The notes under the pieces were generated by a model that was not told where the DNA came from, searched no databases, and saw only the letters and a list, made by a program, of their open reading frames with translations. From the NCBI GenBank assembly GCA_902786595.1, contig CADADB010000006.1, forward strand, positions 95,277-159,276: 64,000 bases of DNA. The letters run 5' to 3'. Position 1 is the first letter of the stretch. The number at the start of each line of letters is the position of its first letter. Position numbers and translations under genes: made by a program. This document shows positions 10,908 to 63,940 of the stretch, piece by piece. The stretch is from an uncultured Bacteroidota bacterium. Its GTDB lineage: Bacteria > Bacteroidota > Bacteroidia > Bacteroidales > WCHB1-69.

Positions 10908-10956
10908 TTGGCTTTTAGCTATTGGCTATTGGCTGTTAGCTGTTGGCTGTTGGTGC
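10908..10956. repeat. 7-bp tandem array, unit TTRGCTN, 7 units
   Basis: Seven consecutive heptamers (TTGGCTT, TTAGCTA and similar) begin at the first base after the sprA stop codon, in the convergent spacer with the symporter. Variation is confined mainly to positions 3 and 7. The array has no long dyad or T-run, so it is not an ordinary terminator. Confidence 0.85.
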
Positions 10957-10966
10957 TTCGCCAATA

Positions 10967-12610
10967 TTACCAAAATACGGCGTAAATTACCACCAGGAGA
11001 ATGCATATCGCGTATGCTGCGATATGGAAATCGCGCTTGGTTTGGAACATACTGGATGTTAACGCAATACCCTTAACATCGTCTTCGTTTTCGCAGGTGC
11101 ATAAACTCACCATCACGATGATGGCCATCGTGAGCAGACAGGTGTAGAACATCTGGTCGATGAAGGGCATGTCAATGGGCAAGAACTTGAGCGCCAATGC
11201 AATGGGGATGGATAACACCACGCCCGTAATGGCGCCTTTGTTGGTGGTCTTCTTCCAGAAAAGTCCTAACAAGAAGAGTGCGAGGATGCCCGGACTCACC
11301 AATCCCGTATATTCCTGGATATACTGGAACATCTGTCCCACACTTCCGAGCAGTGGGGCAATCAGAATGGCGATAATGAGGAAAAGTCCGGCGGAAATCT
11401 GTCCGACCGCTACCAAACGAGGCTCTCTTCCTAACCTTTCTTCTGCTTTCGAAGTAAAATAGGGTTTGAAAATATCCATCGTAAATATGGTGGAAGCGGA
11501 GTTGAGCATAGAAGCCAACGAGGAGATGATGGCGGCGGCTAACGCAGCGAGTACCAGTCCTTTAAGACCCGTCGGGATGAAGGTGCTGATCAGCCACGGA
11601 TAGGCGTTGTCGTTGTTGAGGGCGCCGTTGGCCTTGGTGAGGGCCTCCATTGCTCCCGGATGACCTTCAGTAAACATCACGTAGGCCACAATGCCAGGAA
11701 TAACCACGATGAACGGGATGAGCAACTTGAGGAAGGCCGCGAAAGCCAAGCCCTTTTGCGCTTCGGGCAGCGATTTGGCGGCAAACGCCCGCTGGATGAT
11801 GTATTGGTTGAAGCCCCAATAGTAGAGGTTGGCCACCCACAGTCCGCCGATGAGCATCGCAATGCCAGGCAGGTTATGGTATTCAGGGTTGTCTTTCGGC
11901 AAAATCAGATGCATACGGTCGCCCGCTGAATCCGTGAGATGCCGGATGCCTTGCATCACGGTGCCGTCGGGACTGATGACCTGCAACGCCACCACCGTGG
12001 TGATAAGGCCGCCCAACACAAGCAGAATGACCTGCAGGATGTCCGTCCACGCCACTGAGGAAAGGCCGCCTGTGATGGAATAGAGCGCGGCAACCACCCC
12101 CAGCCCAATGATAGCGGGCATGATGAGCGAGCCGTCACCTGTGCCGATGATGGTGTCAATGGCCTTGGCGCCGAGGAAGAGCACCGAGGTGAGGTTCACG
12201 AAGATGAACAAACCAAGCCAAAACACCGCGAGAATAGTTTTGAGATTTCGAGAGTAACGTTGCTCCACGAATTGGGGAATGGTGTAAATTCCCTGTTTCA
12301 CAAACACAGGCATGAAAAACTTGGCCACAATGATGAGGGTGAGCGCTGCCATGAACTCGTATGAAGCCACTGCGAAACCGCCCGCGAAGCCCGACCCGGA
12401 CATCCCGATAAACTGCTCTGCCGAGATGTTCGCGGCAATCAGCGACGCGCCTATCGTCCACCACGGCAGCGACTTGCCCGCAAGAAAGTAGTCCTCAGCG
12501 GTCTTGTCTTTATTCTTCTTCCGATGTGAAATCCAGATGCCTAATCCAACAATAATTACCAGATAAGCAGCGAAAATGATGATGTCCAGGGTATGAAATG
12601 CGGGGTTCAT
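10967..12610 (-). CDS. sodium/sugar symporter of the SSS family, vSGLT-like
   Basis: 547 residues with about 14 membrane helices. Several stretches are nearly the same as the Vibrio sodium/galactose symporter vSGLT: DYFLAGKSLPWWTIGASL, AANISAEQFIGMSGSG, and NLYYWGFNQYIIQR, which holds the Tyr of the inner gate and an Asn of the sugar site. Glu of SYEF and Lys of AAFLKLL also match sugar-contact positions as I recall them for vSGLT. It should import galactose or glucose with sodium. It stands alone, 110-180 bp from its neighbours, with its own promoter at 12636-12643. The galK and galM genes elsewhere in the window favour galactose, but the substrate is inferred. Confidence 0.9.
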   Translation of the reverse strand: MNPAFHTLDIIIFAAYLVIIVGLGIWISHRKKNKDKTAEDYFLAGKSLPWWTIGASLIAANISAEQFIGMSGSGFAGGFAVASYEFMAALTLIIVAKFFMPVFVKQGIYTIPQFVEQRYSRNLKTILAVFWLGLFIFVNLTSVLFLGAKAIDTIIGTGDGSLIMPAIIGLGVVAALYSITGGLSSVAWTDILQVILLVLGGLITTVVALQVISPDGTVMQGIRHLTDSAGDRMHLILPKDNPEYHNLPGIAMLIGGLWVANLYYWGFNQYIIQRAFAAKSLPEAQKGLAFAAFLKLLIPFIVVIPGIVAYVMFTEGHPGAMEALTKANGALNNDNAYPWLISTFIPTGLKGLVLAALAAAIISSLASMLNSASTIFTMDIFKPYFTSKAEERLGREPRLVAVGQISAGLFLIIAILIAPLLGSVGQMFQYIQEYTGLVSPGILALFLLGLFWKKTTNKGAITGVVLSIPIALALKFLPIDMPFIDQMFYTCLLTMAIIVMVSLCTCENEDDVKGIALTSSMFQTKRDFHIAAYAICILLVVIYAVFW

Positions 12611-12635
12611 TCTTTTGGGGTTTTAAGTTGGGGGG

Positions 12636-12643
12636 CAAAAGTA
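12636..12643 (-). promoter_or_regulatory. -7 promoter element for the symporter gene
   Basis: CAAAAGTA on the plus strand reads TACTTTTG on the minus strand, matching TAnnTTTG, 26 bp upstream of the symporter ATG. Confidence 0.6.
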
Positions 12644-12650
12644 CAAATTT

Positions 12651-12699
12651 TTGGCTATGGGCTGTTAACTTTTGGCTGTTGTCTTTTGCAACTTGGCGA
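12651..12699. repeat. 7-bp tandem array, unit TTGGCTR, 7 units
   Basis: Seven in-register heptamers (TTGGCTA, TGGGCTG, TTAACTT, TTGGCTG and more divergent copies) directly behind the symporter promoter. The array runs into the decayed membrane-protein fragment on the minus strand and contains its TAA stop. Confidence 0.75.
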
Positions 12700-13090: not shown

Positions 13091-13113
13091 ATTGTTAAAT
13101 TTAATAGTTAATG

Positions 13114-13121
13114 CAAAACTA
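13114..13121 (-). promoter_or_regulatory. -7 promoter element for the XRE gene
   Basis: CAAAACTA (TAGTTTTG on the minus strand), 24 bp before the regulator's start codon. Confidence 0.5.
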
Positions 13122-13188
13122 TACCATGCCTCTAATATTTTCTATACGCGGCAAATACACTTTTTCCAACTAAAGATTAATGTTTCAT

Positions 13189-14643: not shown

Positions 14644-14684
14644 TTCTCTATCATTTAATTGGCAAAGTACATTTTTGTTTTTGG

Positions 14685-14719
14685 TCAACAGTTAACAGCC
14701 AACAGCTAACAGCCAATAG
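14685..14719. repeat. 7-bp tandem array, unit CYAACAG, 5 units
   Basis: Five in-register heptamers (TCAACAG, TTAACAG, CCAACAG, CTAACAG, CCAATAG). Read on the minus strand they are the same TTRGCTG-type unit as at 10908. The array begins 1 bp beyond the stop codon of the dipeptidase gene. Confidence 0.8.
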
Positions 14720-14720
14720 C

Positions 14721-15536
14721 TTACCTCAGCTCCTTCACTGGAAACTCAAAGTACGTCTCCGGATACGGTTCGTCCTTTAACGTGAAGTGCCACCATTCGC
14801 TGTCGAGGGGTTTGAAACCGTGGCGGAGCATCGCGGCCCGCAAAATCATGCGGTTTCGGAACTGCTCTTCGGTGATGGTACGGCCTGCGGGAGAGGGTTT
14901 TCCGTTGAACTCGCCCGTCTCGGGGTTGCCGCCGAAATCAGGGTGGCTCTCCTCGCCGAACCAGTCGAAGGTGCCGCCCATGTCAACCTCCTTCTCGGTG
15001 GTCATGTCGAAGAGGGTGAGATCGACGGTGGAGCCGCGGGTGTGGCCGCTTTTCGCCGCGATGTAGTCCAGTTCGAACAACCGACTCTTATCGACCTCGG
15101 GGTAGAAATAGCGCCGCATCATCGTGTCGGGGATGTTGGCGGCCCAGCGCACGAAATGATCGACGGCCATCTGCGGACGGTAGGCGTCGTAGATTTTCAG
15201 CCGGTAGCCCATGCGCATCACGTCGTCGCTGACGGCCTTGAGACTGTCGGCGGCGCGTCTGGTCATCAGGGCGGTGGGCTGCAGGTAACCATCAATGCGC
15301 TGTCCCACAAAGTTGTAGGTGCTGAAATAGCGGATTTCCAAAATCGCGTCCGGCACCACGTCGGTGATGTTCACGAACTGGCTGGCGTCCTGCTCGGGCT
15401 TCACGGTTGTGCTGGAAGCGGCGGAGGTGCAGGGTGCAAACCCGGCCACGACGACATGCCCGTTTTGGGCGGTGGCCGTCAAGGTGAAACACAACGCGAC
15501 GGTACATATAAACAGAGTTTTGAGGTCTCTTTTCAT
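14721..15536 (-). CDS. D-alanyl-D-alanine dipeptidase, VanX type (M15D), secreted
   Basis: 271 residues with a signal peptide (residues 1-23). Zinc ligands are visible in SGHTRGSTVD (His165, Asp172) and SEWWHF (catalytic Glu247, His250), and the substrate-binding Arg is in DAYRPQ (Arg120). VanX-type enzymes cleave D-Ala-D-Ala. Outside vancomycin clusters they are general cell-wall or nutrient dipeptidases, and no vanH or vanA gene is present here, so a resistance role is not implied. A second, lipoprotein member of the family lies at 42074-42823. Confidence 0.92.
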   Translation of the reverse strand: MKRDLKTLFICTVALCFTLTATAQNGHVVVAGFAPCTSAASSTTVKPEQDASQFVNITDVVPDAILEIRYFSTYNFVGQRIDGYLQPTALMTRRAADSLKAVSDDVMRMGYRLKIYDAYRPQMAVDHFVRWAANIPDTMMRRYFYPEVDKSRLFELDYIAAKSGHTRGSTVDLTLFDMTTEKEVDMGGTFDWFGEESHPDFGGNPETGEFNGKPSPAGRTITEEQFRNRMILRAAMLRHGFKPLDSEWWHFTLKDEPYPETYFEFPVKELR

Positions 15537-20698: not shown

Positions 20699-21190
20699 AT
20701 GACGAAGAAAGAAACGGATTTTGAACGAATGGTCCGGGAGCACAAAAGCACCGTCTATACGGTCTGCTACATGTTCTCCAAGGACGCCGACGAGGTCAAT
20801 GACCTGTTCCAGGAAGTCCTCATCAACCTCTGGAAAGGCTTCGACAGTTTCAGGGGCGAGTCGAAGGTGGACACCTGGGTCTGGCGTGTCGCCCTCAATA
20901 CCTGCATCTCCGACGACCGCAAGAAAAAGCGGCGAGGCGAGCGTGTGCCCCTCGAAATGGCCGCCGACCTCTACACCGACACCGACGAGGACACCAAGCA
21001 GATCCGCCAGCTTTATGCGCGCATCAACAAGCTGGGCATCATGGACCGCGCCCTCGTCCTGCTCTGGCTGGAGAACCTCAGCTACGAGGAGATCGGAGCT
21101 ATCGCCGGCATTTCCGCCAAAAACGTTTCCGTGAAGTTGGTTAGAATCAAACAACAGTTAATGAAAATGTCTGACAATCAAGAATGTTAG
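20699..21190 (+). CDS. ECF-type RNA polymerase sigma factor
   Basis: 163 residues. Region 2 (about residues 8-75) contains the core-binding and melting segments (DADEVNDLFQEVLINLW, then FRGESKVDTWVWRVALN); region 4 (about 105-155) ends in an HTH, LSYEEIGAIAGISAKNVSVK. It overlaps or abuts the next gene, a four-helix membrane protein, so the two form a unit. Its codons are richer in G and C than those of the AbiE genes just upstream. Confidence 0.93.
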   Translation: MTKKETDFERMVREHKSTVYTVCYMFSKDADEVNDLFQEVLINLWKGFDSFRGESKVDTWVWRVALNTCISDDRKKKRRGERVPLEMAADLYTDTDEDTKQIRQLYARINKLGIMDRALVLLWLENLSYEEIGAIAGISAKNVSVKLVRIKQQLMKMSDNQEC

Positions 21191-21192
21191 TT

Positions 21193-21795
21193 ATGGAAAA
21201 CAATGAAATAAACAACAGCGAATTGGAAACCATGCGTGCGCAAATCGCACTGCTGAAGGACAAATTAGACAAGGAGACCATCGTTTCCGACAAGCTTCTT
21301 CGCGACACGATGCGGCACAAAGCCCGTAACATCAATGCCAACGCCTGGATTAGCGTGGCAGCCTCTATCTTCGTGATATTCTGGGCATTGTTCTATCTTC
21401 CGGGCGAAGGGTTCAGCTGGTGGTTCTCCGGTGCCACCATCTTGATGATGCTTGTGTGCGACTTCTTTACTTGGAAGTATCATAAGGATGTGAATGACAA
21501 AACGATGAGTGGCGACCTGCTTACCGTTGCCAAAGTGATGAAACAGCTGCGCGACAACTACAAAAAATGGTTGAAATATAGCATTGTTTTGATTGCCGTT
21601 TGGTTTACATGGCTTTCCATAGAATTCTGTATCCGGCTGAAAGATTGGAGATTAGCTGTCATCATGATTATTGCATTGCTCATCGGCTTGGCCATCGGTG
21701 CCTTCATCGGACTGAAGATGCACAATTCGGTGATCCGCAACGCGGAGGAAATCATCAGTCAGATTGAGGAGAACAAAGAAAATGACGAGGAATAG
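21193..21795 (+). CDS. four-helix membrane protein cotranscribed with the sigma factor
   Basis: 200 residues from the ATG at 21193; another ATG at 21184 would overlap the sigma gene by 7 bp and cannot be excluded. A soluble coiled N-terminus (residues 1-50) is followed by two helix pairs (about 52-95 and 125-180) and an acidic tail. Its position after an ECF sigma gene suggests a regulatory partner, possibly an anti-sigma factor, but no anti-sigma domain is recognised. The stop codon is part of a 7-bp repeat array. Confidence 0.75.
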   Translation: MENNEINNSELETMRAQIALLKDKLDKETIVSDKLLRDTMRHKARNINANAWISVAASIFVIFWALFYLPGEGFSWWFSGATILMMLVCDFFTWKYHKDVNDKTMSGDLLTVAKVMKQLRDNYKKWLKYSIVLIAVWFTWLSIEFCIRLKDWRLAVIMIIALLIGLAIGAFIGLKMHNSVIRNAEEIISQIEENKENDEE

Positions 21796-21827
21796 GCCAA
21801 AAGCTAATAGCTAATAGCCAAAAGCCA
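21793..21827. repeat. 7-bp tandem array, unit ATAGCYA, 5 units
   Basis: Units TAGGCCA, AAAGCTA, ATAGCTA, ATAGCCA, AAAGCCA in register; the first holds the stop codon of the membrane protein. Confidence 0.8.
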
Positions 21828-21901: not shown

Positions 21902-22399
21902 ATGGATCTAAACAGTATCATTTCCTCGCTCACGGGCAACAACCTCATCGGAGAAATTGCCAAAAAGTTCAACATTGACCCTAACAAAATCATTGAAGTT
22001 ATCAAGGCCGCTATCCCTAAATTCCTCGGTTCCATGCATCAAAACGCATCAACAGCGGCGGGAGCTGCAGCGTTAACCCAAGCCCTTGGCAACCACGCTG
22101 GTCAGGGATTTGGAATCAACCTTGAAGATGGACAGAAGATTCTCTCCAAGATTTTCGGTGGCAATCTGGGTTCCGTGATTTCCTCTTTGGGCAAGCAAAC
22201 GAGCACCCCTAACGATCAGGTTAACAACATTTTGGCTTCCATTGCCCCGAACCTCCTTTCCGTTTTGGGCAAAGGTGCTGGCACGGGCAACATCGGCAAC
22301 ATCCTCGGTGGACTGTTGGGCGGTAGCGCCAGCGCGAATTCCGGTTCCAGCGCAGGCAAAGTCCTCGGCGGCCTACTGGGAAAGATTTTCAAGAAGTAA
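21902..22399 (+). CDS. DUF937 family protein
   Basis: 165 residues, Gly/Ala/Leu rich, with the DUF937 pattern: two copies of a helix-Gly-Gly-loop (IFGGNLGSVISSLGK near residue 80; ILGGLLGGSASAN and VLGGLLGKIFKK near the C-terminus). No signal peptide or catalytic motif. Function unknown; relatives such as YidB are linked to envelope homeostasis only loosely. It has its own promoter and a strong downstream terminator. Confidence 0.75.
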   Translation: MDLNSIISSLTGNNLIGEIAKKFNIDPNKIIEVIKAAIPKFLGSMHQNASTAAGAAALTQALGNHAGQGFGINLEDGQKILSKIFGGNLGSVISSLGKQTSTPNDQVNNILASIAPNLLSVLGKGAGTGNIGNILGGLLGGSASANSGSSAGKVLGGLLGKIFKK

Positions 22400-22441
22400 G
22401 ACTTGAGACTTAAGACTTAGGACTTAGGACTTAAGACTTTT
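22400..22441. repeat. 7-bp tandem array, unit GACTTRR, 6 units
   Basis: GACTTGA, GACTTAA, GACTTAG (twice), GACTTAA, GACTTTT, starting at the first base after the DUF937 stop codon. The unit differs completely from the TTRGCTN type while keeping the same period. Confidence 0.85.
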
Positions 22442-22467: not shown

Positions 22468-22503
22468 AAAAACACCGTCATCTCACTTGGCGGTGTTTTT
22501 TTG
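22468..22503. terminator. bidirectional rho-independent terminator
   Basis: AAAAACACCG (22468-22477) pairs with CGGTGTTTTT (22491-22500) around a 13-base loop, with A and T runs on both sides. It sits between the convergent DUF937 and galM genes and can serve both. Confidence 0.85.
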
Positions 22504-22530
22504 TAGAGACGTTTCATGAAACGTCTCTAC
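22503..22530. repeat. 28-bp palindrome, GTAGAGACG family (copy 1)
   Basis: A perfect 28-bp palindrome from GTAGAGACGTTTC to GAAACGTCTCTAC. It overlaps the end of galM and provides its TAG stop. An identical copy is at 28143-28170. Confidence 0.85.
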
Positions 22531-28186: not shown

Positions 28187-28735
28187 TTAGTATTCAAACG
28201 GCGACACAAACGTGGCAAACGCCTCGCCGTGCATGTCCTTTTCAGAAGTGATGGGGTTCTCAATTTGCCAATCGATGTTCAAATCCTTGTCATTGAACAT
28301 GATACACCCCTCGGAGGCCTTGTTGTAGAAATTCGAGCATTTGTAGGCGAAAACGGTGTTATCCTCCAAGGCGGCGAAACCGTGTGCAAAGCCGGCAGGG
28401 ATGTAGAACTGACGGAAATTATCGGCGGTAAGCAACGTGGAAACGTACTGTCCGTATGTCGGACTGCCTTTGCGGATATCTACGGCGAAATCTCTTACCG
28501 AACCGCGCAGCACCCGCACGATTTTGGCCTGCGCGTAAGGCGGCTTCTGAAAATGCAACCCGCGCACCACACCCTTCTGCGAACACGACTGGTTGTCTTG
28601 CACGAAATCGTCTGTGATTCCTAACTCCTTGTAGCGTTGCTCGTTATAACTCTCGAAAAAATACCCGCGGTCATCCTTGAAAACCGTCGGCTCAATGATT
28701 AACAATCCTTCAATTTGTGTTTTTATTATTTCCAT
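28187..28735 (-). CDS. rfbC: dTDP-4-dehydrorhamnose 3,5-epimerase
   Basis: 182 residues, the usual length. It carries the cupin signature with FKDDRGYFFESY, the catalytic His61 in VRGLHFQKPP, and IPAGFAHGFAAL (about 112-123). It catalyses the third step of dTDP-L-rhamnose synthesis for polysaccharides. The other rfb genes (A, B, D) are not in the window, so this copy is detached from a surface-sugar cluster. Its 3' spacer has a 28-bp palindrome and its 5' spacer a 7-bp array. Confidence 0.95.
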   Translation of the reverse strand: MEIIKTQIEGLLIIEPTVFKDDRGYFFESYNEQRYKELGITDDFVQDNQSCSQKGVVRGLHFQKPPYAQAKIVRVLRGSVRDFAVDIRKGSPTYGQYVSTLLTADNFRQFYIPAGFAHGFAALEDNTVFAYKCSNFYNKASEGCIMFNDKDLNIDWQIENPITSEKDMHGEAFATFVSPFEY

Positions 28736-28740: not shown

Positions 28741-28775
28741 TAGTGAATAGTGATCAGTGATTAGTGAACTATGAT
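28741..28775. repeat. 7-bp tandem array, unit YAGTGAW, 5 units
   Basis: TAGTGAA, TAGTGAT, CAGTGAT, TAGTGAA, CTATGAT, beginning 6 bp upstream of the rfbC start codon, so it occupies the rfbC leader position. Confidence 0.75.
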
Positions 28776-28787: not shown

Positions 28788-28815
28788 GTAGAGACGCTAT
28801 GCATAGCGTCTCTAC
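28788..28815. repeat. 28-bp palindrome, GTAGAGACG family (variant copy 3)
   Basis: Same outer nine bases as copies 1 and 2, but the centre is CTATGCATAG instead of TTTCATGAAA, with the dyad kept. It is flanked by a further inverted pair, ATAGGTG (28774-28780) and CACCTAT (28816-28822). Confidence 0.8.
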
Positions 28816-28823
28816 ACCTATCC

Positions 28824-28865
28824 AATTTTCATCATTCATCATTTTTCATTCTACATTGTACATTG
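28824..28865. repeat. 7-bp tandem array, unit WACATTS/ATCATTY, 6 units
   Basis: AATTTTC, ATCATTC, ATCATTT, TTCATTC, TACATTG (twice); ends 2 bp from the stop codon of the ClC gene. The unit drifts along the array while the period holds. Confidence 0.7.
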
Positions 28866-32682: not shown

Positions 32683-32738
32683 ACAGCCATTGGCTATTGG
32701 CCATTCGCTAAAAGCCAACAGTTAAAAGCTAACAGCCA
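32683..32738. repeat. 7-bp tandem array, 8 units, mixed strand sense
   Basis: Eight in-register heptamers: TTGGCTA-type units in the first half and the complementary sense (AAAGCCA, ACAGTTA, AAAGCTA, ACAGCCA) in the second, starting 5 bp after the manA stop and ending 4 bp before the next start. The switch of sense without loss of register makes an imperfect hairpin. Confidence 0.85.
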
Positions 32739-40900: not shown

Positions 40901-41607
40901 TCAATCGGGTATCCTTCAAATGCGAGGGTGATTTCTTCACTTGTGTATTGCATTTGCTGAACGGGTGCACTGTGCAGGAGACGGCCATAAATCTGAGCGA
41001 ATCCGGTATATCGCATTTCATCACCTAACTCGAATTCATGCGAAGAGGACCCTTTGATATTTACTTTGATCGTCTTTGGATTGTTGCTCGCATAAGTGAT
41101 TCGGTCTGTTCCTCCGTGCCCGGTGTTTACCATTTTCAAGCTACGGGTACCACTTTGGGTCTGTATGGATAAAATATAGGTTTGCGGGGTGGTCAGCGTA
41201 ATGTCAAAATAATTGTCTCCCGATGTGATTCGGCCTGTATATTGGGCGTGCGTTCTTCCATTAATATCCACTATCTGTATTTTAGCTTCTTCATCCTCGG
41301 TGGAAAAGACATTTACCCGTGTATGTCCTTCAAAGGGATTGGGCATTACCTTCATTTCGGTTGCCTGTTCGATGTTCTCGATTCCCAAGCCGATATTCAA
41401 CGTGTATATGGTGTCTGGAAACAAGAGGGTTTCCTGCCAATTACGGCTTATGTTTTGTATGGTCAGGCCATTCATGCTGACATGGGATCCATGCTGGTCT
41501 TCCCCTGAAAACACTAACGTTACAGAATTCTGTGCATAACAATCCAATATTAGGGTTAGCAGTGCGAAGAGACTAAATATTATTTTAGGGAATGAGTTCA
41601 TTTTCAT
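37819..41607 (-). CDS. N-terminal part of a frameshifted FISUMP surface protein
   Basis: Signal peptide (MKMNSFPKIIFSLFALLTLI, Ala cleavage), an early T9SS-like domain (VMPNPFEGHTRVNVF, residues about 87-165), a P-domain-like jelly roll (about 330-540), a FISUMP domain (about 555-780), then repeated ~92-residue modules. After TINDGF (near 37970) the frame leaves the module pattern and reads Cys/His-rich nonsense for about 45 codons to a chance stop, so the real end is the 36321-37976 frame. One module (near 38270) also lacks about 16 residues in frame. Likely a cell-surface protein whose modules have recombined. Confidence 0.8.
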   Translation of the reverse strand: MKMNSFPKIIFSLFALLTLILDCYAQNSVTLVFSGEDQHGSHVSMNGLTIQNISRNWQETLLFPDTIYTLNIGLGIENIEQATEMKVMPNPFEGHTRVNVFSTEDEEAKIQIVDINGRTHAQYTGRITSGDNYFDITLTTPQTYILSIQTQSGTRSLKMVNTGHGGTDRITYASNNPKTIKVNIKGSSSHEFELGDEMRYTGFAQIYGRLLHSAPVQQMQYTSEEITLAFEGYPIEVSTDSVIFNDETTFVCYGTVNTYGLGAVQTGFCWSCDPNPSLSDSHISSGMTEGLFASVLTAMDANTTYYIRAYAINGTDTAYGENITCAPTFSFTNSETVFIPDGVDCNNGCIRGSSIEVSGYTPAATILSAEDILFLRLKLEHSFIGDLYIALTCPNGQSVKIMNKYGQGSSFCSSQIPTPWGWHLTTGFVSSAYFGEANTNFHGCEPTDSLNQIGVPWNYCWSNNTTNGYQYANGSGYVYDSTNVTDGKVDSTNTINMTQVYHPDQPFSQLIGCPMNGTWSIEIIDGWSVFDGWMTEWEIAFSGRNKPAAPESDATLTHPCQNITTVTDFDGNVYHTVAIGNQCWLRENLRTTHYSYNEIIHLGEGTSTSMACYYLPENTEDTLAGYLYNWSAVMKGASSDTTSTNHIRGICPYGWHVPADAEWSLLMEYLSLNSEYSCGDNTSSMAKSMATKTGWNISDNICAVGHDMSSNNATSFSAFPAGKAYGIPDDYGKSANFWTATAYNSDFAYYYSLNYDNSFVERNIFGDKCNGMSVRCIRDEGIPVYLPTISTLPVSNVTEFSALCGGKITSTGGATIIGRGICWSTSPDPTISDSHISDNSGLNTFTCSIENLDANTTYYVRAYATNVAGIAYGEQRSFTTTVSFIAVNTASVSDITCTSATCGGNVAAGNPFAVDAYGVCWSTSANPTLANSHTVDGSGIGSFTSGITGLQPNTTYHVRAYAIYYGTDTVYGEQKSFFTPNVLPTVTTAALSNITFTSAACGGEVTYEGLDGVTARGVCWSISPNPTTNDSHTVDGSGLGSFSSSIMGLQPDTRYYIRAYATNSAGTVYGTQRFFNTLEPMPEVSTNTVSDISYTTATCGGSVTSEGMTPVTASLTVDGSGLGDFTSYITGLLPYTHYYVRAYATNNSGTVYGTQLQFTTLVPTPTVTTVPVSNVTCTTATCGGNVTNEGMTSVTARGVCWSTSSNPTINDGFTALLCAGLRHQHCRHGIWCTTSVHHTCCHTNGNDCCYEQCYLHDCHMWR

Positions 41608-49027: not shown

Positions 49028-49104
49028 TTGGCTATTAGCTATTAGCTGTTGGCTTTTGGCTCTTAATTCTTGGTCTTTGGCCCTGTTGCCTTGGCCCTTC
49101 TCCC
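49028..49104. repeat. 7-bp tandem array, 11 units, extending into the 3' end of a gene
   Basis: Eleven in-register heptamers (TTGGCTA, TTAGCTA, TTAGCTG, TTGGCTT, TTGGCTC, TTAATTC, TTGGTCT, TTGGCCC, TGTTGCC, TTGGCCC, TTCTCCC). The right part lies inside the protease gene, whose stop codon is in the sixth unit and whose last 13 residues are array-encoded. Confidence 0.8.
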
Positions 49105-49527
49105 CTTTTTGAAAAAAAAACTGTTGTTTTCGTAATCAATGACCGCCTTATGATTCACACAGAAGTCGTTACCCAAAATCATTTGGACGGGTTTATGGTG
49201 CAGAGCTTTGTAGGCATTATTGATGTGGGCAAAGTCAATTACCGCGACGTTTTGCATAAGTTTTTGATGGTAATGGCCGATTTTGAAGTCAGGGAGGTCG
49301 GTAACCATCACTTCAAACCCCGTACCGCCAATTCCAGCGTTAACACCTTCGTTTTTCTCCATTTCCTTGTCCGGAAACAGCTTGTTGACAAACGATTTGT
49401 CCACACAACTATGCGACGCGCCTGTGTCCAGAACGATACGGATTTTCTCCCCCGCCACCGAGCCGTTCAGTAGCGTGTGGTAGTCACCTTTTTCTAATTG
49501 AAGTATTTTCAGAGGGGTTTTATACAT
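49063..49527 (-). CDS. retropepsin-like aspartic protease
   Basis: 154 residues. LDTGASHSCVD (Asp34) is the retropepsin active-site motif and MILGNDFCVN the usual conserved strand near the C-terminus; a single lobe means the enzyme must dimerise. No signal peptide. Such clan AA peptidases are common in Bacteroidota with mostly unknown substrates. The basic tail (GRRAKATGPKTKN) is translated from the 7-bp array and is probably not part of the ancestral fold. No promoter or partner gene is obvious. Confidence 0.85.
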   Translation of the reverse strand: MYKTPLKILQLEKGDYHTLLNGSVAGEKIRIVLDTGASHSCVDKSFVNKLFPDKEMEKNEGVNAGIGGTGFEVMVTDLPDFKIGHYHQKLMQNVAVIDFAHINNAYKALHHKPVQMILGNDFCVNHKAVIDYENNSFFFKKGRRAKATGPKTKN

Positions 49528-49563: not shown

Positions 49564-49598
49564 AATGTAAAATGTACAATGAACAATGAACATTGGGG
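49564..49598. repeat. 7-bp tandem array, unit AATGWAM, 5 units
   Basis: AATGTAA, AATGTAC, AATGAAC (twice), ATTGGGG, 37 bp upstream of the protease start. Confidence 0.7.
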
Positions 49599-50686: not shown

Positions 50687-50790
50687 CGATGAGACGATGA
50701 AAAACGATGAAAACGATGAGGCGATGAGACGATGAGGCGATGAGACGATGAGACGATGAGACGATGAATTAACGATGAAAGGGCGATGAA
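50687..50790. repeat. 8-bp tandem array, unit CGATGAGA, about 9 units plus spaced copies
   Basis: From 50714 the units CGATGAGG and CGATGAGA follow without gaps to 50769; the flanks contain CGATGAAA copies with irregular spacers. It lies upstream of the corA promoter, and its complement (TCTCATCG) matches the downstream array at 49653. Confidence 0.85.
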
Positions 50791-52150: not shown

Positions 52151-54529
52151 ATGAGAAACTTTCTAACCCCAATAATCCTCCTCGCCATGATGACCGCTAC
52201 CGCGCAACGCGATTATACCCAGTATGTTAACCCGATGATCGGGACCAACGGCATGGGGCACACCTTCCCCGGCGCGTGCTACCCCTTCGGGGGCGTGCAG
52301 GTGAGTCCCGACACGGACACCATCCCCCACAACATCAACGGCCGCTACCAGCCGGGCGTCTATGACTACTGCGCCGGCTACCAGTACCGCGACAAGACCA
52401 TCGTGGGTTTCAGTCACACCCACTTCAGCGGCACCGGCCACTCCGACATGGGCGACATCCTGCTGATGCCCTTCACCGGCGAGGTGCAGCTTAATCCCGG
52501 CACTGCCGACAACCCCGACGGCGGCTACCGCTCGCGCTTCAGCCACGAAACCGAGAAGGCCTCGCCCGGCTACTACGAGGTGCGCCTCAGCGACGACGAC
52601 ATCCTCGTGCAGCTCACCGCTACCCCGCACTGCGGCATCCACAAATACACCTTCCCCCAAGGCGAAACCCAGAAACTCATCGTCGATCTCAACCACTGTC
52701 TCTACAACTACGATGGCAAGGTGCTGTGGGCCTCCCTGCGCATGGAAGACCCTTGGACACTGACGGGCTACCGCATCACCAACGGCTGGGCACGTGAGAA
52801 TTATGTTTATTTCGCCATACACTTTAGCAAACGTGTGGCGCACTACGGCTACCAGGATTTCGGGAAACAGGACTACAACGGCTTCTGGGGCCGCTTCGAC
52901 GTGAATCACGATTTTCCCGAAATGGCGGGACGCAAGGTAGTATGTTGGGTAGAGTTTGAACAGGATGATGAGCCTGAACTTGAGGTATATGTAGCACTAT
53001 CGGCTGTCAGCACTACTGGAGCTTATGACAATCTCCGCGAAGAAGCTGTCGCTCACATTATGGACAATATTGATAGAGGACCCCGTCCTGATTCTTTTAA
53101 TGATTGGCATCAGTTGGCCAAGCAAGCGTGGAATGACAAGTTGGGTATCTACGAAGCACAAGGAACGGATGATCAGTTGGCTATGTTCTATACCTCTCTA
53201 TATCATACGATGATAAATCCATCCATATATCAAGATGTTGATGGACAATACCGCGGTGTGGACCACAATATTCATCAAAATAAAAAAGGACACACTAATT
53301 ACACGATATTCTCTTTATGGGACACCTATCGTGCCGAGCATCCGCTATTGAACATCATCGATCCGAAAAGCGCATCCGATATGGTGGAATCTATGGTGAA
53401 TCATGCCAAACTGAGCGTGCATAGAGTTTTACCCATTTGGAGTCATGCCGGCAATGAGAATTGGTGTATGATTGGCTACCACGGCGTGTCAGTAGTGGCT
53501 GATTACTACCTTACCAACTTCCTGCATAATAATAAGAATGTAAAACTAGAAAACAGTCTTATCAACGTAGAACCCTGGATCACAAGTAGCGCCAACTTGG
53601 ATTACTACGACCATACCGACCTATACAAGAAATTGGGCTATGTTCCATACGACAAATCTGCAGTAGGTACCTCCATCACCTTGGAAAATGCATACGAAGA
53701 CTGGGTGATTTACCATCTGTTGGACAAGAGCAACGGGATAGACTATGTGAAAGAAACTTACCGCCAGCGCGCGCTGAACTTCAAGAACGTCTTCAATCCG
53801 GAGACGGGCTTCGCGCAGGCGCGTTATGAGGACGGCAGCTGGAAGACGCCCGCCGACCTGCTCTCCACCGCTAACGAGGGCTTCATCGAGGGCAACAGCT
53901 GGAACTATTCGTTCTACGTGCCGCACGATGTCAACGGCTTGATCAAGATCATGGGTGGCGACAAGGTCTTCGTGAACCGCCTGGACGAGCTCTTCACGAT
54001 GTATGTGCCCGACAAGTTTTTCGCTGAGACAGAGGATGTTACCCGCGAAGGGATGTTGGGCGGCTATGTGCACGGCAACGAGCCCAGTCACCACATCCCG
54101 TACCTCTACATGTGGACCTCCCAGCCGTGGAAGACGCAGCTGCGTGTGCGCGAGGTGATGAACAAGATGTACCGCAACCACCTCGACGGGCTGTGCGGCA
54201 ACGACGACTGCGGACAGATGTCGGCGTGGTACATCTTCAGCGCGATGGGCTTCTATCCCGTCTGCCCCGCCAGCGGCCAGTACGTCTTCGGGGCGCCCTA
54301 CCTGCCCGAGAACATCCTCCATCTGCAAAACGGCAACACCCTGACCATCAAGGCCCCCAACGTCAGTGACCAGAACTGCTATGTCCAGTCGGTAACGCTC
54401 AACGGCAAACCGCTGCACTGCGCCTACATCACCTACGAGCAGATTATGGCCGGCGGCGAGCTCGTCTTCACGATGGGCAGCAAACCGAACAGAAAATGGT
54501 TCACGGAAAAGCCGTATTCGCTGGAGTAA
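52151..54529 (+). CDS. glycoside hydrolase family 92, alpha-mannosidase
   Basis: 792 residues with a signal peptide (MRNFLTPIILLAMMTATAQ). The GH92 opening YVNPMIGTNGMGHTFPGACY is followed by FSHTHFSGTGHSDMGD; the catalytic C-terminal (alpha/alpha)6 barrel has the GNEPSHHIPYLY block and LCGNDDCGQMSAWY. GH92 enzymes are Ca2+-dependent exo-alpha-mannosidases acting on N-glycans or yeast mannan; linkage cannot be told. Base composition is uneven: both ends are G/C-rich, while about 52930-53760 is clearly richer in A and T. This suggests a recombinant gene. Confidence 0.93.
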   Translation: MRNFLTPIILLAMMTATAQRDYTQYVNPMIGTNGMGHTFPGACYPFGGVQVSPDTDTIPHNINGRYQPGVYDYCAGYQYRDKTIVGFSHTHFSGTGHSDMGDILLMPFTGEVQLNPGTADNPDGGYRSRFSHETEKASPGYYEVRLSDDDILVQLTATPHCGIHKYTFPQGETQKLIVDLNHCLYNYDGKVLWASLRMEDPWTLTGYRITNGWARENYVYFAIHFSKRVAHYGYQDFGKQDYNGFWGRFDVNHDFPEMAGRKVVCWVEFEQDDEPELEVYVALSAVSTTGAYDNLREEAVAHIMDNIDRGPRPDSFNDWHQLAKQAWNDKLGIYEAQGTDDQLAMFYTSLYHTMINPSIYQDVDGQYRGVDHNIHQNKKGHTNYTIFSLWDTYRAEHPLLNIIDPKSASDMVESMVNHAKLSVHRVLPIWSHAGNENWCMIGYHGVSVVADYYLTNFLHNNKNVKLENSLINVEPWITSSANLDYYDHTDLYKKLGYVPYDKSAVGTSITLENAYEDWVIYHLLDKSNGIDYVKETYRQRALNFKNVFNPETGFAQARYEDGSWKTPADLLSTANEGFIEGNSWNYSFYVPHDVNGLIKIMGGDKVFVNRLDELFTMYVPDKFFAETEDVTREGMLGGYVHGNEPSHHIPYLYMWTSQPWKTQLRVREVMNKMYRNHLDGLCGNDDCGQMSAWYIFSAMGFYPVCPASGQYVFGAPYLPENILHLQNGNTLTIKAPNVSDQNCYVQSVTLNGKPLHCAYITYEQIMAGGELVFTMGSKPNRKWFTEKPYSLE

Positions 54530-54544
54530 TTAAGAATTAAGAAT
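54528..54544. repeat. short 7-bp repeat, unit AATTAAG
   Basis: Two full units and a partial third; the first overlaps the GH92 stop codon. Confidence 0.55.
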
Positions 54545-54566
54545 GGTGGTGGGAATAGCCCCAATT

Positions 54567-54600
54567 CCCCCTTTAGGGGGATGCCCGAAGGGCAGGGGGT
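54567..54600. repeat. paired small hairpins CCCCCTTTAGGGGG and GCCCGAAGGGC
   Basis: Two adjacent short dyads (54567-54580 and 54583-54593) followed by AGGGGGTT, between the GH92 stop and the third repeat element of the same spacer. Confidence 0.6.
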
Positions 54601-54611
54601 TAAAACAACTT

Positions 54612-54648
54612 CCTTGAGCAGCCCCGACAGGGGCAAGAGCTCGGTAGC
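54612..54648. repeat. GCCCC-loop-GGGGC repeat element (copy 1)
   Basis: CCTTGAGCA, then the hairpin GCCCC-GACA-GGGGC (54621-54634), then AAGAGCTCGGTAGC. Related copies are at 57942 and 63953. Confidence 0.75.
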
Positions 54649-54717
54649 GGAATTCGTAAAAAAATCCAACATACATAATAATTTTTCAACACACGTCGTT
54701 CATATCAAAAAAAAGAG

Positions 54718-54725
54718 TATTTTTG
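54718..54725 (+). promoter_or_regulatory. -7 promoter element for the first TonB gene
   Basis: TATTTTTG, 44 bp before the start codon. Confidence 0.6.
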
Positions 54726-54768
54726 CAGACCGATTAAAAGTGTATTTTAACGTTAAAAACAAATCAAT

Positions 54769-55458: not shown

Positions 55459-55462
55459 CTCT

Positions 55463-55497
55463 GGTTTCAGGTTTCAGGATTCAAGTTTCATGTTGAA
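55463..55497. repeat. 7-bp tandem array, unit GGTTTCA, 5 units
   Basis: GGTTTCA (twice), GGATTCA, AGTTTCA, TGTTGAA, starting 4 bp after the stop of the first TonB gene. Confidence 0.75.
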
Positions 55498-55536
55498 CGT
55501 TGCCAGTTCCTGATTCTTTAACCAAATATTACGATA

Positions 55537-56403: not shown

Positions 56404-56508
56404 TTGGACTTTTGTCATTAGACTGTGGACTTTAGACTGTGGACTTTAGACTGTGGACTAGTCCTAAGTCTCGAGTCTTAATTCCTAAGTCCTAAGTCTT
56501 AAGTCTTA
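56404..56508. repeat. 7-bp tandem array, 15 units, with in-register inversion
   Basis: Eight units alternating TTAGACT and GTGGACT are followed directly by seven units of the complementary sense (AGTCCTA, AGTCTTA). The 7-bp register is unbroken across the turn at 56460. The last unit holds the stop codon of the minus-strand gene. Confidence 0.9.
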
Positions 56509-56895
56509 ATATTTCCGTTTCAGGATCTCCGACCAGACCACTCCTTTGTACACCTCTTCCTCATCCAGGGAAAGGTTGATTTTAGTGTCCGGTTTTTTCT
56601 GAACGGAAGAGATGGTTGTTTCCTCCTCCACGTTTTGGGCGAATTCCTGCTCGAAATCGCGCTCACTCATGGTCTCGTAGGAGAAATACTCCTCGTTTTG
56701 CTTTGGTTGGGGCGCTACTCTCGTTCTCTTCGTTTGGGGACGCACCTCTTCCTCCTCGTAAGTTTCGGCTTCCACCGGCTGGCTTCGCATCTTCTTCACC
56801 TGCCGTGCCGCTTCATCCTTTTTCAATGTCTTGACGACAGATAGCAAAATACTGCCTACAATAAGTATAATGTATAAAATTAAATCAAAATCCAT
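56506..56895 (-). CDS. single-pass membrane protein of unknown function
   Basis: 129 residues: one N-terminal membrane helix (LILYIILIVGSILLSVV, residues 5-21), a basic stretch, then a charged, low-complexity cytoplasmic tail rich in Glu, Gln and Lys. No domain recognised. It starts 5 bp after the stop of the BrkB-family gene and is likely cotranscribed with it. Confidence 0.75.
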   Translation of the reverse strand: MDFDLILYIILIVGSILLSVVKTLKKDEAARQVKKMRSQPVEAETYEEEEVRPQTKRTRVAPQPKQNEEYFSYETMSERDFEQEFAQNVEEETTISSVQKKPDTKINLSLDEEEVYKGVVWSEILKRKY

Positions 56896-59362: not shown

Positions 59363-59388
59363 CGTTAACAATATTATCGTTTGTATCT

Positions 59389-59458
59389 TTCAGCTTTTAG
59401 CTTTTGGCTATTAGCTATTGGCATTTTTTAAGTCCCAAGTCTCAAGTCCAATGTCTAA
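59389..59458. repeat. 7-bp tandem array, 10 units, motif switch in register
   Basis: Five TTTAGCT/ATTGGCT-type units, one T-rich unit, then four AGTCYCA-type units, all in one 7-bp register. The second motif matches the array at 56404; the first matches the array at 10908. Confidence 0.85.
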
Positions 59459-59472: not shown

Positions 59473-59507
59473 GAATAAGCCAATAGCTAACAGCCAACAG
59501 CCAATAG
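59473..59507. repeat. 7-bp tandem array, unit CCAAYAG, 5 units
   Basis: GAATAAG, CCAATAG, CTAACAG, CCAACAG, CCAATAG, ending 4 bp from the hutH stop. It is the reverse complement of the first half of the array at 59389, so the two could pair into a long imperfect stem. Confidence 0.8.
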
Positions 59508-59511
59508 CTGG

Positions 59512-61005: not shown

Positions 61006-61042
61006 TTTATTACGATTTATTATTGTTATTTTTGATTTTTTG

Positions 61043-61147
61043 TGATCAGCGATCAGTGATTAGTGAACAGTGATCAGGCAAAAGGCAATAGGGAACAGGC
61101 AACAGCATTTATCATTCTTAATTTTTAATTCTTAATTCTGAATTACA
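61043..61147. repeat. 7-bp tandem array, 15 units, three motif families in one register
   Basis: TGATCAG/TGATTAG units (5), then GCAATAG/GCAACAG units (4), then CATTCTT/AATTCTT units (6), all in one unbroken 7-bp register over 105 bp. The stop codon and last codons of the disulfide reductase lie in the final units. Confidence 0.88.
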
Positions 61148-62805
61148 TTGTGTCTGCCTGTCAGCCGATACGTCCGCATCCCGCCGATGAGATTATACAC
61201 CTCCTCAAATCCGTTCTGCATGAGGATGCGGGAGGCGACGTAGCCACGCAGACCGACCTCGCAGAAGACCACGATTTTCTTTCCTTCGGGAATCTCTTCC
61301 AGAAACTCGCGCAGCTCATCCACGGAGTAGCGGGTTGCTCCTTCAATGGTACCGTTCTTGTATTCAGGTAGTTCGCGGACATCCAAGAGGAAGAAGTCTT
61401 CATTGTTGTCAATCATTTCGTCCAGCTGTTTCACGTGGATGGGGTTCATCAGGTGGGCAAAGATGTTCTCGGCCACCATACCGGCGAACATCACAGGACT
61501 CTTGGCCGACCCGAACGGCGGCGCATAGGTGTGCTCGCTGTTCACCAAGTCGAAAATCGTGCCATGGTGTTTTAGCAATAAGGAGATGGTGTCAATCTGT
61601 TTGTCAATATTTTGCGTCCCGATGGCCTGGGCACCGTAAATCGTGCCGTCTTCCGTGGAGAAGTTCAGTTTTAGCGACATTGGGGTGCTTCCCGGATAGT
61701 AGGTGGCGTGCGCGGCTGGATGCACGATGACGGTTTCGTAGGCGAGATTCGCTCGTTGCAAAGCCGCTTCGTTCAGTCCTGTGCTGGCCACGGCCAAATC
61801 GAAAATCTTGGCGATGGCAGTGCCCACAGAACCTTGATAGACAACGCTTTCGGGATAGACCATGTTCATGGCGGCGATACGTGCCTGCGCGTTCGCGGGA
61901 CCCGCCAAGAAGTTGCAGTATGGAACGCCCGTCACGGGATGCGGGAACTCGATGGCATCCCCCACCGCGAAAATGCGCTCGTCGGAGGTCTGCAAGTATT
62001 CGTTGACCTTGATGCCCCGGCCGATTTCCAGACCGGCGGCTTCGGCCAATGCCGTGTTCGGACGCACACCGATGCTCAGCACTGCGAGATCGCAGGATAA
62101 CTTCTGCCCGTCCTCTAAGCAGACGGTCAGCTGGTCGCCGCTTTCCTCAAACCCGCTAATGCCGTTACCAGTAATCAGCTGCACGCCCTTGTCTCTCAGA
62201 TGCTTCTCCGCGATGGCTGCGATGGGTTCATCCACGGGCGTGAGGATGTGGTCGGCTTTCTCCACTACTGTAATCTGGTAACCGATCTTGTGCAAGTTCT
62301 CTGCCATTTCCAACCCGATAAAACCACCACCGATGATAACTGCTTTCGCGTTATCGTGCAGTGATTCAATGGCTTGCATCTTGATTTTGTCGCAGTCGCT
62401 GACGCTACGCAGGGTAAAGATCTTCTCACTGTGGATGCCGGGCAGTTCAGGAATCACCGGTTCGGCGCCGGGCGACAGCAAGAGGATGTCGTAGTCCTCG
62501 GTGTAAGTCTTGCCGTTGCGCAGGTTCTTGACCTCCACGGTGTGCGACTCGCGGTTGATGGCGGTCACTTCCTGCAACGTCCTGACATCCACATCGTAAC
62601 GGTTGCCGAACGACACGGGGGTCTGCACGAACAGCCGCTTCCGGTCTTCGATGGTGTTGCCGATGTAGTAGGGCATACCGCAGTTGGCGTACGAGATGTA
62701 CTCGCCCTTCTCGAACACGATGATTTCGGCATCTTCGTTCAGTCTTCTAAGTCGCGCGGCCGCCGATGCTCCGCCGGCGACGCCGCCTATGATGAGGTAT
62801 TTCAT
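61132..62805 (-). CDS. CoA-disulfide reductase with C-terminal rhodanese domain
   Basis: 557 residues. An FAD-binding motif at the N-terminus (IIGGVAGGASAAARLRRL), the single redox-active Cys42 of the CoADR class in SYANCGMPYYIG, an NAD-binding GGGFIGLEMA, and the FAD-contacting AVGDAIEF. Residues about 450-557 form a rhodanese domain whose active-site loop is CEVGLRG (near Cys512). CoADR-rhodanese fusions reduce CoA disulfide, CoA persulfide or polysulfide with NADH, keeping the thiol pool reduced. The last residues (VIQN) are encoded by a 7-bp array. Confidence 0.92.
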   Translation of the reverse strand: MKYLIIGGVAGGASAAARLRRLNEDAEIIVFEKGEYISYANCGMPYYIGNTIEDRKRLFVQTPVSFGNRYDVDVRTLQEVTAINRESHTVEVKNLRNGKTYTEDYDILLLSPGAEPVIPELPGIHSEKIFTLRSVSDCDKIKMQAIESLHDNAKAVIIGGGFIGLEMAENLHKIGYQITVVEKADHILTPVDEPIAAIAEKHLRDKGVQLITGNGISGFEESGDQLTVCLEDGQKLSCDLAVLSIGVRPNTALAEAAGLEIGRGIKVNEYLQTSDERIFAVGDAIEFPHPVTGVPYCNFLAGPANAQARIAAMNMVYPESVVYQGSVGTAIAKIFDLAVASTGLNEAALQRANLAYETVIVHPAAHATYYPGSTPMSLKLNFSTEDGTIYGAQAIGTQNIDKQIDTISLLLKHHGTIFDLVNSEHTYAPPFGSAKSPVMFAGMVAENIFAHLMNPIHVKQLDEMIDNNEDFFLLDVRELPEYKNGTIEGATRYSVDELREFLEEIPEGKKIVVFCEVGLRGYVASRILMQNGFEEVYNLIGGMRTYRLTGRHNVIQN

Positions 62806-62814
62806 ATTTTTAAT

Positions 62815-62940
62815 GGTTATGGGTTATGGGTTATAGGTTATCGAAGCCTCTGATGAGACTTAAGACGTGAGACGTGAGACGTTGGGGTTGTTCGTTACCA
62901 CGCGCCTTACGTCCACGTCTTACGTCCTACGTCTAACGTC
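62815..62940. repeat. 7-bp tandem arrays GGTTATN, GACGTGA and inverted YNACGTC
   Basis: Four GGTTATN units (62815-62842), then GACTTAA, GACGTGA (twice) and GACGTTG (62857-62884), a degenerate centre, and five units of the complementary sense CCACGTC/TTACGTC/CTACGTC/TAACGTC up to 62940. The stop codon of purC lies in the last units. Confidence 0.8.
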
Positions 62941-63880
62941 TATTACTCAGCCACTTCGTTACATTGTCATAAATCCGTTGCTCCACGTTGTCGGCGGGGG
63001 CGGGGACGAACTTCTCGCCGGTGATGTGCTCGTAGAGCTCAATGTAGCGGTTGGTGATGCCGTTGACGACCTCTTCGGTCATTTCGGGCACCTGCTGGCC
63101 CTCCTGTCCTTGGAAGCCGTTGGCCATCAGCCACTCGCGCACGAACTCCTTCGACAACTGCTTCTGCGGCAGACCTTTGGCGAATTGCTCTTCATAGCCC
63201 TGCGCGTAGAAGTAACGGGAGGAGTCGGGGGTGTGGATTTCGTCGATGAGGTAGATCTTGTCGTCGGTCTTGCCGAACTCGTACTTGGTATCGACGAGGA
63301 TCAATCCTTTCTTGGCTGCGATTTCGGTGCCGCGAAGAAAGAGTTTCATCGTGTAGTCCTCCAACACGGCGTAGTCTTCGGGAGAGACGAGACCCTTGGC
63401 GAGGATTTCCTCCTTGGAGATGTCAGCGTCATGCCCGCCCTGCTCGGCCTTGGTGGTCGGGGTGATGAGCGGCACCGGGAACTTCTGGTTCTCCTTCATG
63501 CCGTCGGGCAGGATGTTGCCGCAGAGGTTGCGTCCGCCGTTCTTGTAGAAACGCCACGCGCTGCCGCACAGGTAGCCGCGCACGATCATCTCCACCGGGA
63601 AGCCCTTGCAGACGCGGCCCACCGTGACCATCGGGTCGGGGGAGGCCATCTTCCAATTCGGACAGATGTCGCTGGTGGCATCCAAGAACTTGGATGCTAT
63701 CTGGTTGAGGATCTGTCCTTTGTAAGGGATGCCCTTCGGTAAAATGACATCAAAGGCGGAGATGCGGTCTGAAGCGACCATCACTAAAACATCGTCCAAG
63801 AAATAAACATCGCGGACTTTTCCGTGATACACCGATTTTTGATTCGGAAATTGGTAATTGGTTTTTGTTAAGGCGTTCAT
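62933..63880 (-). CDS. purC: phosphoribosylaminoimidazole-succinocarboxamide synthase
   Basis: 315 residues, the longer SAICAR synthase type. The ATP-binding opening is [20 protein letters not shown], followed by [20 protein letters not shown], and the substrate loop is [14 protein letters not shown]; the metal-binding region is [14 protein letters not shown]. It condenses CAIR with aspartate in purine synthesis. No other pur gene is near. Both ends of the gene touch 7-bp arrays: the stop codon lies in one and the sequence 5 bp before the start codon in another. Confidence 0.96.
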
Positions 63881-63884
63881 ATTG

Positions 63885-63940
63885 GGTTTAAGGTTTATAG
63901 TTTAAGGGTTAAGGGTTAAGGTTTAAGGTTTAAGGGTTAA
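63885..63940. repeat. 7-bp tandem array, unit GGKTTAA, 8 units
   Basis: GGTTTAA, GGTTTAT, AGTTTAA, GGGTTAA (twice), GGTTTAA (twice), GGGTTAA, starting 5 bp upstream of the purC start codon, so it occupies the leader of purC. Confidence 0.88.

Follow-up and report, generated by a model that had tools for sequence, protein, structure and literature searches.

Spacers in the genome of an uncultured Bacteroidales bacterium (GTDB lineage WCHB1-69; 2.84 Mb in 40 contigs, 93% complete; here G000) carry tandem arrays of degenerate 7-bp units that gain and lose units in 7-nt steps, switch between unit families of a shared repertoire, are richer in G than in C when read inward from the nearest gene boundary, and in part face each other as inverted pairs. 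They came to attention in a 64,000-nt stretch of contig C6 (95277-159276; hereafter the window), where a first-pass annotation had described heptamer arrays at gene ends. The named relatives are metagenome-assembled genomes (MAGs), with no isolates among them; the top named matches for one protein of the genome come from uncultured ruminant-gut Bacteroidales MAGs (e.g., RUG538 and RGIG2805) at 92-97% identity.

Running our detector on 464 kb of G000, made up of the window and 20 further stretches (75 kb non-coding and 389 kb coding), we found 108 period-7 arrays in non-coding DNA and 6 in coding DNA at a strict threshold (score of at least 12), and none in one dinucleotide-preserving shuffle. 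Genes were called with a simple script, for which stops are firm and start codons approximate. At the other periods from 4 to 24 (multiples of 7 excluded), spacer arrays numbered 0-10 (5 at period 6, 10 at period 8), giving the over-representation of 7-bp units, and not of other periods, that marks bacterial intergenic heptanucleotide tandem repeats. About a third of the spacers examined (89 of 278) bear an array. A looser threshold, applied to a larger sample of 864 kb and to spacers of 40-700 bp, yielded 248 arrays, the set also used for the polarity counts below. Spacer autocorrelation at lag 7 was 0.295, compared with 0.266 in base shuffles (z 26), with z of 10 and 25 at lags 14 and 21; lags 1 (z 33), 2, 3, 6 and 8, along with several multiples of 3, were raised too, partly because the first gene caller left coding DNA among the spacers. 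Three consecutive TTRGCTN units matched the genome 116 + 115 times (231, overlapping), versus 1 + 1 for the reversed pattern. The lag-7 excess is thus present beyond the window by both autocorrelation and period counts, confirming that the heptamer arrays are real and genome-wide.

Turnover, shared families and strand polarity

We searched 39 sister genomes of the genus (40 including G000), which allow gain, loss, unit steps and family switches to be read at the same gene ends. Comparing 120 orthologous spacers of G000 and its relative G020, 4 of which were dropped as too long (median orthologue identity 95%), we found arrays in both genomes at 31, in G000 only at 13, in G020 only at 2 and in neither at 70. 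At stop ends, the two arrays were of the same family in 15 cases and of different families in 6, with 15 ends occupied in G000 only, 4 in G020 only and 72 in neither; the corresponding counts at start ends were 5, 2, 5, 4 and 104. Where an array end was common to both genomes, the family therefore differed in 8 of 28 cases. Indel lengths were multiples of 7 in 18 of 32 cases inside arrays versus 8 of 155 elsewhere, which, together with the family changes, supports turnover in 7-nt steps. Thirty conserved array pairs, counted from both sides, showed differences at 69 of 350 free positions (as defined from the family patterns), at 806 of 10354 sites of other aligned spacer DNA and at 53 of 1068 fixed positions, although the selection of arrays itself accounts for part of that fixity. 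Unit number, unit family and presence thus all change at the same spacers, and the arrays are not ordinary spacers conserved unchanged into distant relatives; having many copies in the genome and lengths that differ among close relatives, they are of the same general kind as known bacterial heptanucleotide repeats.

Such switching can be followed at a CoA-disulfide-reductase-like gene of the window (61132-62805), whose proteins are 93-97% identical among species and whose stop-side array varies in family: TAGTGAW in G009, GACTTWA plus CTACTGC in G016, AATGTAG in G062, ACAATGT in G020, and AAGTCTY plus GGCAATA in G013, with G010 having the same words as G000. In G003 and G026 a GTAGAGACG palindrome replaces the stop-side array, and in G012 it lies beside one. 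At C2:154812, both arms of a pair switch together, from GTTTAAG..CTTAACC in G000 to TTRGCT..AGCYAA in G020. Palindromes of the GTAGAGACG..CGTCTCTAC type are also found in the window (28788-28816 and 22503-22530) and, by a simple pattern, at 53 places in the 864 kb, sometimes where a relative has a heptamer array. As a class, such an exchange of arrays and palindromes at one site was not significant: array-free ends with an array-bearing orthologue were not significantly richer in palindromes (5/19 versus 22/144, p=0.32).

Each site had been described as having its own unit; instead, a few families recur over the genome and across species. The 248 arrays fell into 25 clusters (greedy and coarse, with related words mixed), the top five of which hold 185 arrays; with permuted unit columns, the mean was 111. 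Among the main words, given in the direction running inward from the closest gene boundary, are TTRGCTN, GACTTRR/GACGTRN, GGTTATN/GGKTTAA, TTTNCGR and TAATKGA. Three consecutive TTRGCTN units occur in 29 of 35 other genomes of the same genus (1-283 matches each) and in 3 of 24 genomes from other families of the order, with one match each. In samples of 20-425 kb per genome, ten closer relatives had period-7 densities of 10.5-35.4 per 100 kb, compared with 0-7.0 for four other genus members and 0-2.0 for three other families; in G056, from another family of the order (67 kb, L248-L252), the density reached 15.0, with arrays that use units of their own (CTTGAGC, AAGGCTC, CGTCACG).

The inward-read array strand has more G than C in a ratio of 97:22 on the stop side (97/119, p 2e-12) and 41:4 on the start side (41/45, p 9e-9), omitting arrays with equal G and C, and the bias is weak in interior arrays (51:29, p 0.02). 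Array-free spacer ends lack such a skew (71:59 at stops and 84:69 at starts in the 464 kb). In G020 the stop side gave 37:4 and the start side 14:6, which falls short of significance alone (p=0.1); nine further relatives gave 22:4 and 19:1, a replicate that is not fully independent because relatives share ancestry. With 9 spacer arrays each, neither G056 (stop 3:0, interior 2:1, start 1:0) nor the array-poor genus member G029 (stop 4:1, start 1:2) offers enough for a judgement on polarity. Free positions are biased as well, being seldom G on the outward strand in most families (last position of AGCYAAN, A53 T57 C41 G2; ATAACCN, C51 A36 T27 G1); TTGCCTN (G9 of 29) and, at one position, TCACTNN (G34 of 82) are exceptions. 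Any mechanism proposed for the arrays has to account for two definite regularities, their inward polarity and the set positions at which units are free to vary.

Placement relative to genes

In the 464-kb sample, 58 arrays overlapped or lay within 9 bp of a stop codon, compared with 26.0 expected from random placement in the same spacers, whereas the corresponding figures for start codons were 22 and 19.1, indicating clear enrichment on the stop side only. The first-pass placement of arrays just past coding regions therefore holds as a preference, but for 47 of the 248 arrays a start codon is no more than 25 bp away; in the window, those at 28741-28767, 62815-62841 and 63885-63940 are just upstream of a start, and that at 59387-59422 is 16 bp upstream of one. 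With placement on both sides, each gain or loss is a natural experiment on 5' and 3' gene ends. Array density in the 864 kb was 4.31 per kb in convergent spacers, 3.67 in tandem spacers and 1.57 in divergent spacers. The five divergent spacers of the window said to be array-free were indeed empty at a score of at least 8, but divergent spacers elsewhere hold 29 arrays. Some arrays end, by eye, at promoter-like TTTGC motifs.

Within the window, 28 of 64 rows from Tandem Repeats Finder (TRF), which overlap one another, have period 7, and our detector, run with gene boundaries entered by hand, found 21 spacer arrays at a score of at least 8. Among 14 stop-codon sites named in the annotation, the detector recovered 12 (10908, 14719, 21795, 22400, 28865, 49063, 54529, 55463, 56506, 59507, 61132 and 62933) and TRF alone recovered 32683, but 746 was found by neither. 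The arrays are as follows, where "both" stands for TRF and detector.

10908..10953, + strand: TTRGCTN array directly after the stop of the SprA-like gene (3723-10907, +); both
14684..14720, - strand: array with inward unit TGTTRRC, abutting the stop of 14721-15536 (-); both
21796..21827, + strand: GCYAAWA array abutting the stop of 21184-21795 (+), of the minority, opposite polarity; both
22391..22439, + strand: GACTTRR array overlapping the stop of 21902-22399 (+); both
28741..28767, - strand: TAGTGAW array just upstream of the start of 28187-28735 (-); both
28828..28865, - strand: TTCATCA/TTGTACA array, 2 bp from the stop at 28868 (-); both
32685..32735, + strand: TTRGCTN-like, then inverse AGCYAAN-like units, after the stop at 32677; TRF and letters, missed by the detector
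49028..49064, - strand: TTRGCTN array (as read on +) overlapping the stop of 49063-49527 (-), of opposite polarity; both
49564..49595, no strand assigned: AATGWAC array in the spacer upstream of the start at 49527; both
54528..54544, + strand: short AATTAAG array overlapping the stop at 54529; both
55460..55502, + strand: GGTTTCA array after the stop at 55458; both
56421..56459, + strand: GACTKTR array, the left one in a convergent spacer, facing 56467..56509; both
56467..56509, - strand: AGTCYTA array overlapping the stop at 56506, by eye the inverse of the GACT words at left; both
59387..59422, + strand: CTWTTRG array, left arm of an inverted pair, 16 bp upstream of the start at 59371; detector
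59430..59448, no strand assigned: AAGTCYN array between the arms 59387..59422 and 59478..59508; detector
59478..59508, - strand: AGCCAAY array, right arm, 3 bp from the stop at 59512, with three more units in G020; detector
61044..61144, - strand: TGATCAG, GGCAAYA and AATTCTT arrays in succession up to the stop at 61132, with other families in relatives; detector
62815..62841, - strand: (ATAACCN)4 cassette directly upstream of the start of 61132-62805 (-); detector
62856..62882, + strand: AGACGTR array, left arm of an inverted pair; detector
62915..62942, - strand: ACGTCTW array, right arm, overlapping the stop at 62933; detector
63885..63940, - strand: GGKTTAA array (TTAAMCC outward) just upstream of the start of 62933-63880 (-); detector

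Candidate mechanisms

In-place slippage of a chance seed predicts site-private units and no polarity, and both predictions fail (shared families; 97:22 and 41:4). A third prediction of plain homogenising slippage, that neighbouring units are alike, fails for family-defined arrays, where adjacent units are slightly less alike than a random order would give (z +2.75, n=121), and holds for detector-defined arrays (z -10), a result biased by the detector's selection for lag-7 similarity. Recurring families, inward polarity, inverted pairs and unhomogenised neighbours thus indicate that slippage in place is not enough. The stepwise process that the annotation had proposed past coding regions stands in its 7-nt steps but, as local slippage, misses the polarity, the inverted same-family pairs and the confinement of variation to set positions.

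The reading we place first, with about an even chance of being right, is one of non-coding arrays with 7-bp stepwise turnover, which draw on a shared repertoire, are swapped by recombination or exchange, and survive when interrupted. The gain and loss of whole units, as in replication slippage or unequal recombination, would take place in parts of spacers that hold no coding or promoter information. Arrays would be seeded, by a route we infer, from a common repertoire of roughly a dozen families, and the replacement of whole arrays by other families would come about most simply through recombination or gene conversion among dispersed copies together with spacer exchange between species. Arrays whose neighbouring units differ slightly would persist because perfect repeats are unstable, and neighbours that differ slightly more than random are what such persistence would lead us to expect. 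Facing arrays of one family can form long imperfect hairpins, probably as a by-product for the most part and perhaps put to use in some cases, and the arrays may have no required function. A shared, exchanging pool with survival of interrupted arrays would cover most of the data, leaving the polarity over.

Several observations weigh against this pool of exchanging arrays. Recombination between array copies was not seen directly, and the likeness of adjacent units in detector-defined arrays, biased as it is, points the other way. Slippage and drift predict neither the inward polarity, which recurs in relatives, nor the confinement of variation to set positions that are seldom G on the outward strand. 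The ATAACCN cassette, mostly of four units and with a shared flank, is closer to a defined element than to a slipping tract.

The polarity, tied as it is to both stops and starts, would be better explained if the arrays were selected RNA elements, with a G-over-C arm after the stop and a C-over-G arm before the next start that make imperfect intergenic hairpins and G-poor, unstructured leaders, a possibility to which we give distinctly less credence. Such elements might protect 3' ends or bring about differential expression within operons; as unit identity would be free while the pattern is kept, families would be interchangeable, and at C2:154812 both arms do change family together. Among 45 same-spacer array pairs, 13 are inverted versions of one family (control 8.6%, ~3.9 expected) and 1 is a direct copy (control 2.8%). 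A looser search of 118 arrays (129 less 11 for which the remaining spacer was too small) found an inverted partner in the same spacer for 27, versus 8.2 expected, and a direct partner for 7, versus 4.6. Some paired arrays form stems of -30 to -56 kcal/mol, and interchangeable complementary heptamer stems are described for the Nostoc trnL intron (PMC4476775). However, 91 of the 118 arrays lack an inverted partner at the threshold of that search, many ends gain or lose arrays outright, and palindromes do not significantly take the place of missing arrays (above). Array-bearing stop ends also fold little better than array-free ones, with a mean z of -2.09 for an array at the stop (n=100), -2.14 for one further off (n=63) and -1.81 for none (n=275), a likeness that tells against the hairpin as a general role. 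The free positions of the two arms match no more than those of shuffled partners in three families (14, 8 and 4 spacers), which tells against RNA elements and gives no support to fold-back copying of one arm into the other. A separate T-tailed hairpin, read from the letters, is also present at some array ends.

In the 464 kb, (ATAACCN)n with an upstream flank occurs by unrelated genes at 18 places, 13 of them with exactly four units; TTCA lies directly upstream in 14 of the 18 and GCTTCA in 8, and the nearest gene boundary is on the same side in 17. GCTTCA-(ATAACCN)4 has 36 exact matches in the genome and matches in 18 of 40 genus genomes. The usual four units, common flank and nearly uniform orientation of this family would fit a REP-like small mobile element or cassette that is inserted next to gene boundaries, always the same way round, and moved by a transposase acting in trans. 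TTAAMCC arrays, 2 of 4 of which have a 16-bp upstream flank in common, perhaps fit as well, and Y1 transposases are found in 36 of 40 genus genomes. REP/RAYT elements are short palindromes that flank a Y1 (RAYT-like) transposase and are moved by it. The four Y1 loci read (in G000, G020, L268 and L269; one to two kb each), however, sit among other repeats with no heptamer array, which leaves the RAYT link unsupported; free positions vary among cassette copies, and the other families compared share no flank by eye. We therefore regard mobile cassettes as an improbable account of the arrays. Separately, a dispersed hairpin repeat (GTCCC/GCCCC..GGGAC/GGGGC, then a GCTCGGTAG word) lies at 54529-54768 and 63941-64000 of the window and at the Y1 transposase loci L203 (C1:270141-270485) and L190 (G020:C12:241838-242182), and surrounds a Y1 (RAYT-like) transposase gene of G000, possibly as a REP/RAYT system.

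Polarity and free positions would be explained together if a trans-acting, template-directed, telomerase-like polymerase extended 3' ends inward from both boundaries in 7-nt steps, after which the ends were joined; a template would set five or six positions, one or two others being misread or lacking a template, and the families would be the readout of several templates per genome. The polarity is the same at both boundaries, with the G-rich strand running 5' to 3' inward and arrays head to head, free positions are not homogenised between neighbouring units, and repeat-adding bacterial reverse transcriptases exist (DRT10, PMC12632851). Were this the case, the spacers would hold two telomere-like tracts fused head to head, the work of a bacterial repeat-addition system on its own chromosome. 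We nevertheless consider it highly unlikely: it needs as many templates as there are families, the step-7 indels are explicable without it, and the two profiles searched in the 40 genus genomes (RVT_1 and Ku) turned up no enzyme for templated synthesis. RVT_1 was found in 9 of the 40, among them G000, G006 and G009, and not in the array-rich G020 (99% complete), G010, G026 or G031, although a very divergent reverse transcriptase would escape the profile, and Ku was found in 0 of 40. On these counts, neither a link to reverse transcriptases nor Ku end-joining is supported.

Known heptanucleotide repeats and other features

The STRR repeats of heterocystous cyanobacteria are multi-copy heptanucleotide tandem repeats, a feature they have in common with the arrays described here. 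Bacterial heptanucleotide repeats are known from cyanobacteria, Xanthomonas, Beggiatoaceae and some Bacteroidetes; the arrays here are a variant that is of many families, degenerate at set positions, polarised and partly paired. The annotation had known of no description of this kind in Bacteroidota, but TAACTGA direct repeats have been reported in five Bacteroidetes as well as in Beggiatoaceae and cyanobacteria, some with other heptamers in the same spacers (PMC4679880). These repeats resemble ours in forming arrays by start codons, mostly in one orientation to the start, and in including Bacteroidetes, but they are of a single invariant unit and mainly on the start side, whereas ours are of many degenerate families and mainly on the stop side; two consecutive TAACTGA units gave 0 matches in the 864 kb. 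Beyond that paper, no such description for Bacteroidales or rumen genomes appeared in the titles and abstract openings of the matches listed, a scope with most subscription papers outside it.

The GGGAATC repeats of Xanthomonas and GGGGAYT repeats of Nostoc PCC 7120 are G-rich, G4-forming heptamers, one unit being studied per genome, and three heptanucleotides are reported from Calothrix (PMC4692102). Like the arrays here, they lie mostly in spacers near one neighbouring gene, in many copies whose length and sequence vary among close relatives. The Xanthomonas repeat, however, occurs about equally on a gene's own and opposite strand, in contrast to the many degenerate families, inward polarity and inverted pairs found here, and two consecutive units of GGGAATC or GGGGAYT gave 0 matches in the 864 kb. 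In the P6b stem of the Nostoc trnL intron, degenerate heptanucleotide units (Class I TDNGATT, Class II NNTGAGT) likewise have set free positions and complementary arms, with indels of 7 and 14 nt and replacement of a whole class at one site among related lineages, but they make up a single intron stem, whereas the arrays here are in spacers genome-wide (PMC4476775). Three consecutive units of NNTGAGT had 0 matches in the 864 kb (permuted controls 0-3) and of TDNGATT 7, not much more than its permuted controls (0-5), placing the arrays in neither class. Why seven is so common among long bacterial repeat units is discussed, and unsettled, in PMC4679880 and PMC4692102.

The gene at 3723-10907 encodes a 2394-aa SprA-like protein (PF14349, motility related/secretion protein), and the only Rfam match in the window is a tRNA. 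A Fibronectin-III/Fib_succ_major gene at 36321-41607 has long internal repeats (294 and 235 bp units) and is overlapped by a second reading frame, possibly through a frameshift or an assembly join. Repeats of a different period are also present: an 8-bp array (CGATGAGA, 9.8 copies) lies in a tandem spacer at 50687-50767, periods 8 and 16 each account for 10 spacer arrays in the 464 kb, and CGATGARA tracts, similar to CGATGAGA, stand at gene ends in some relatives where others have heptamers.

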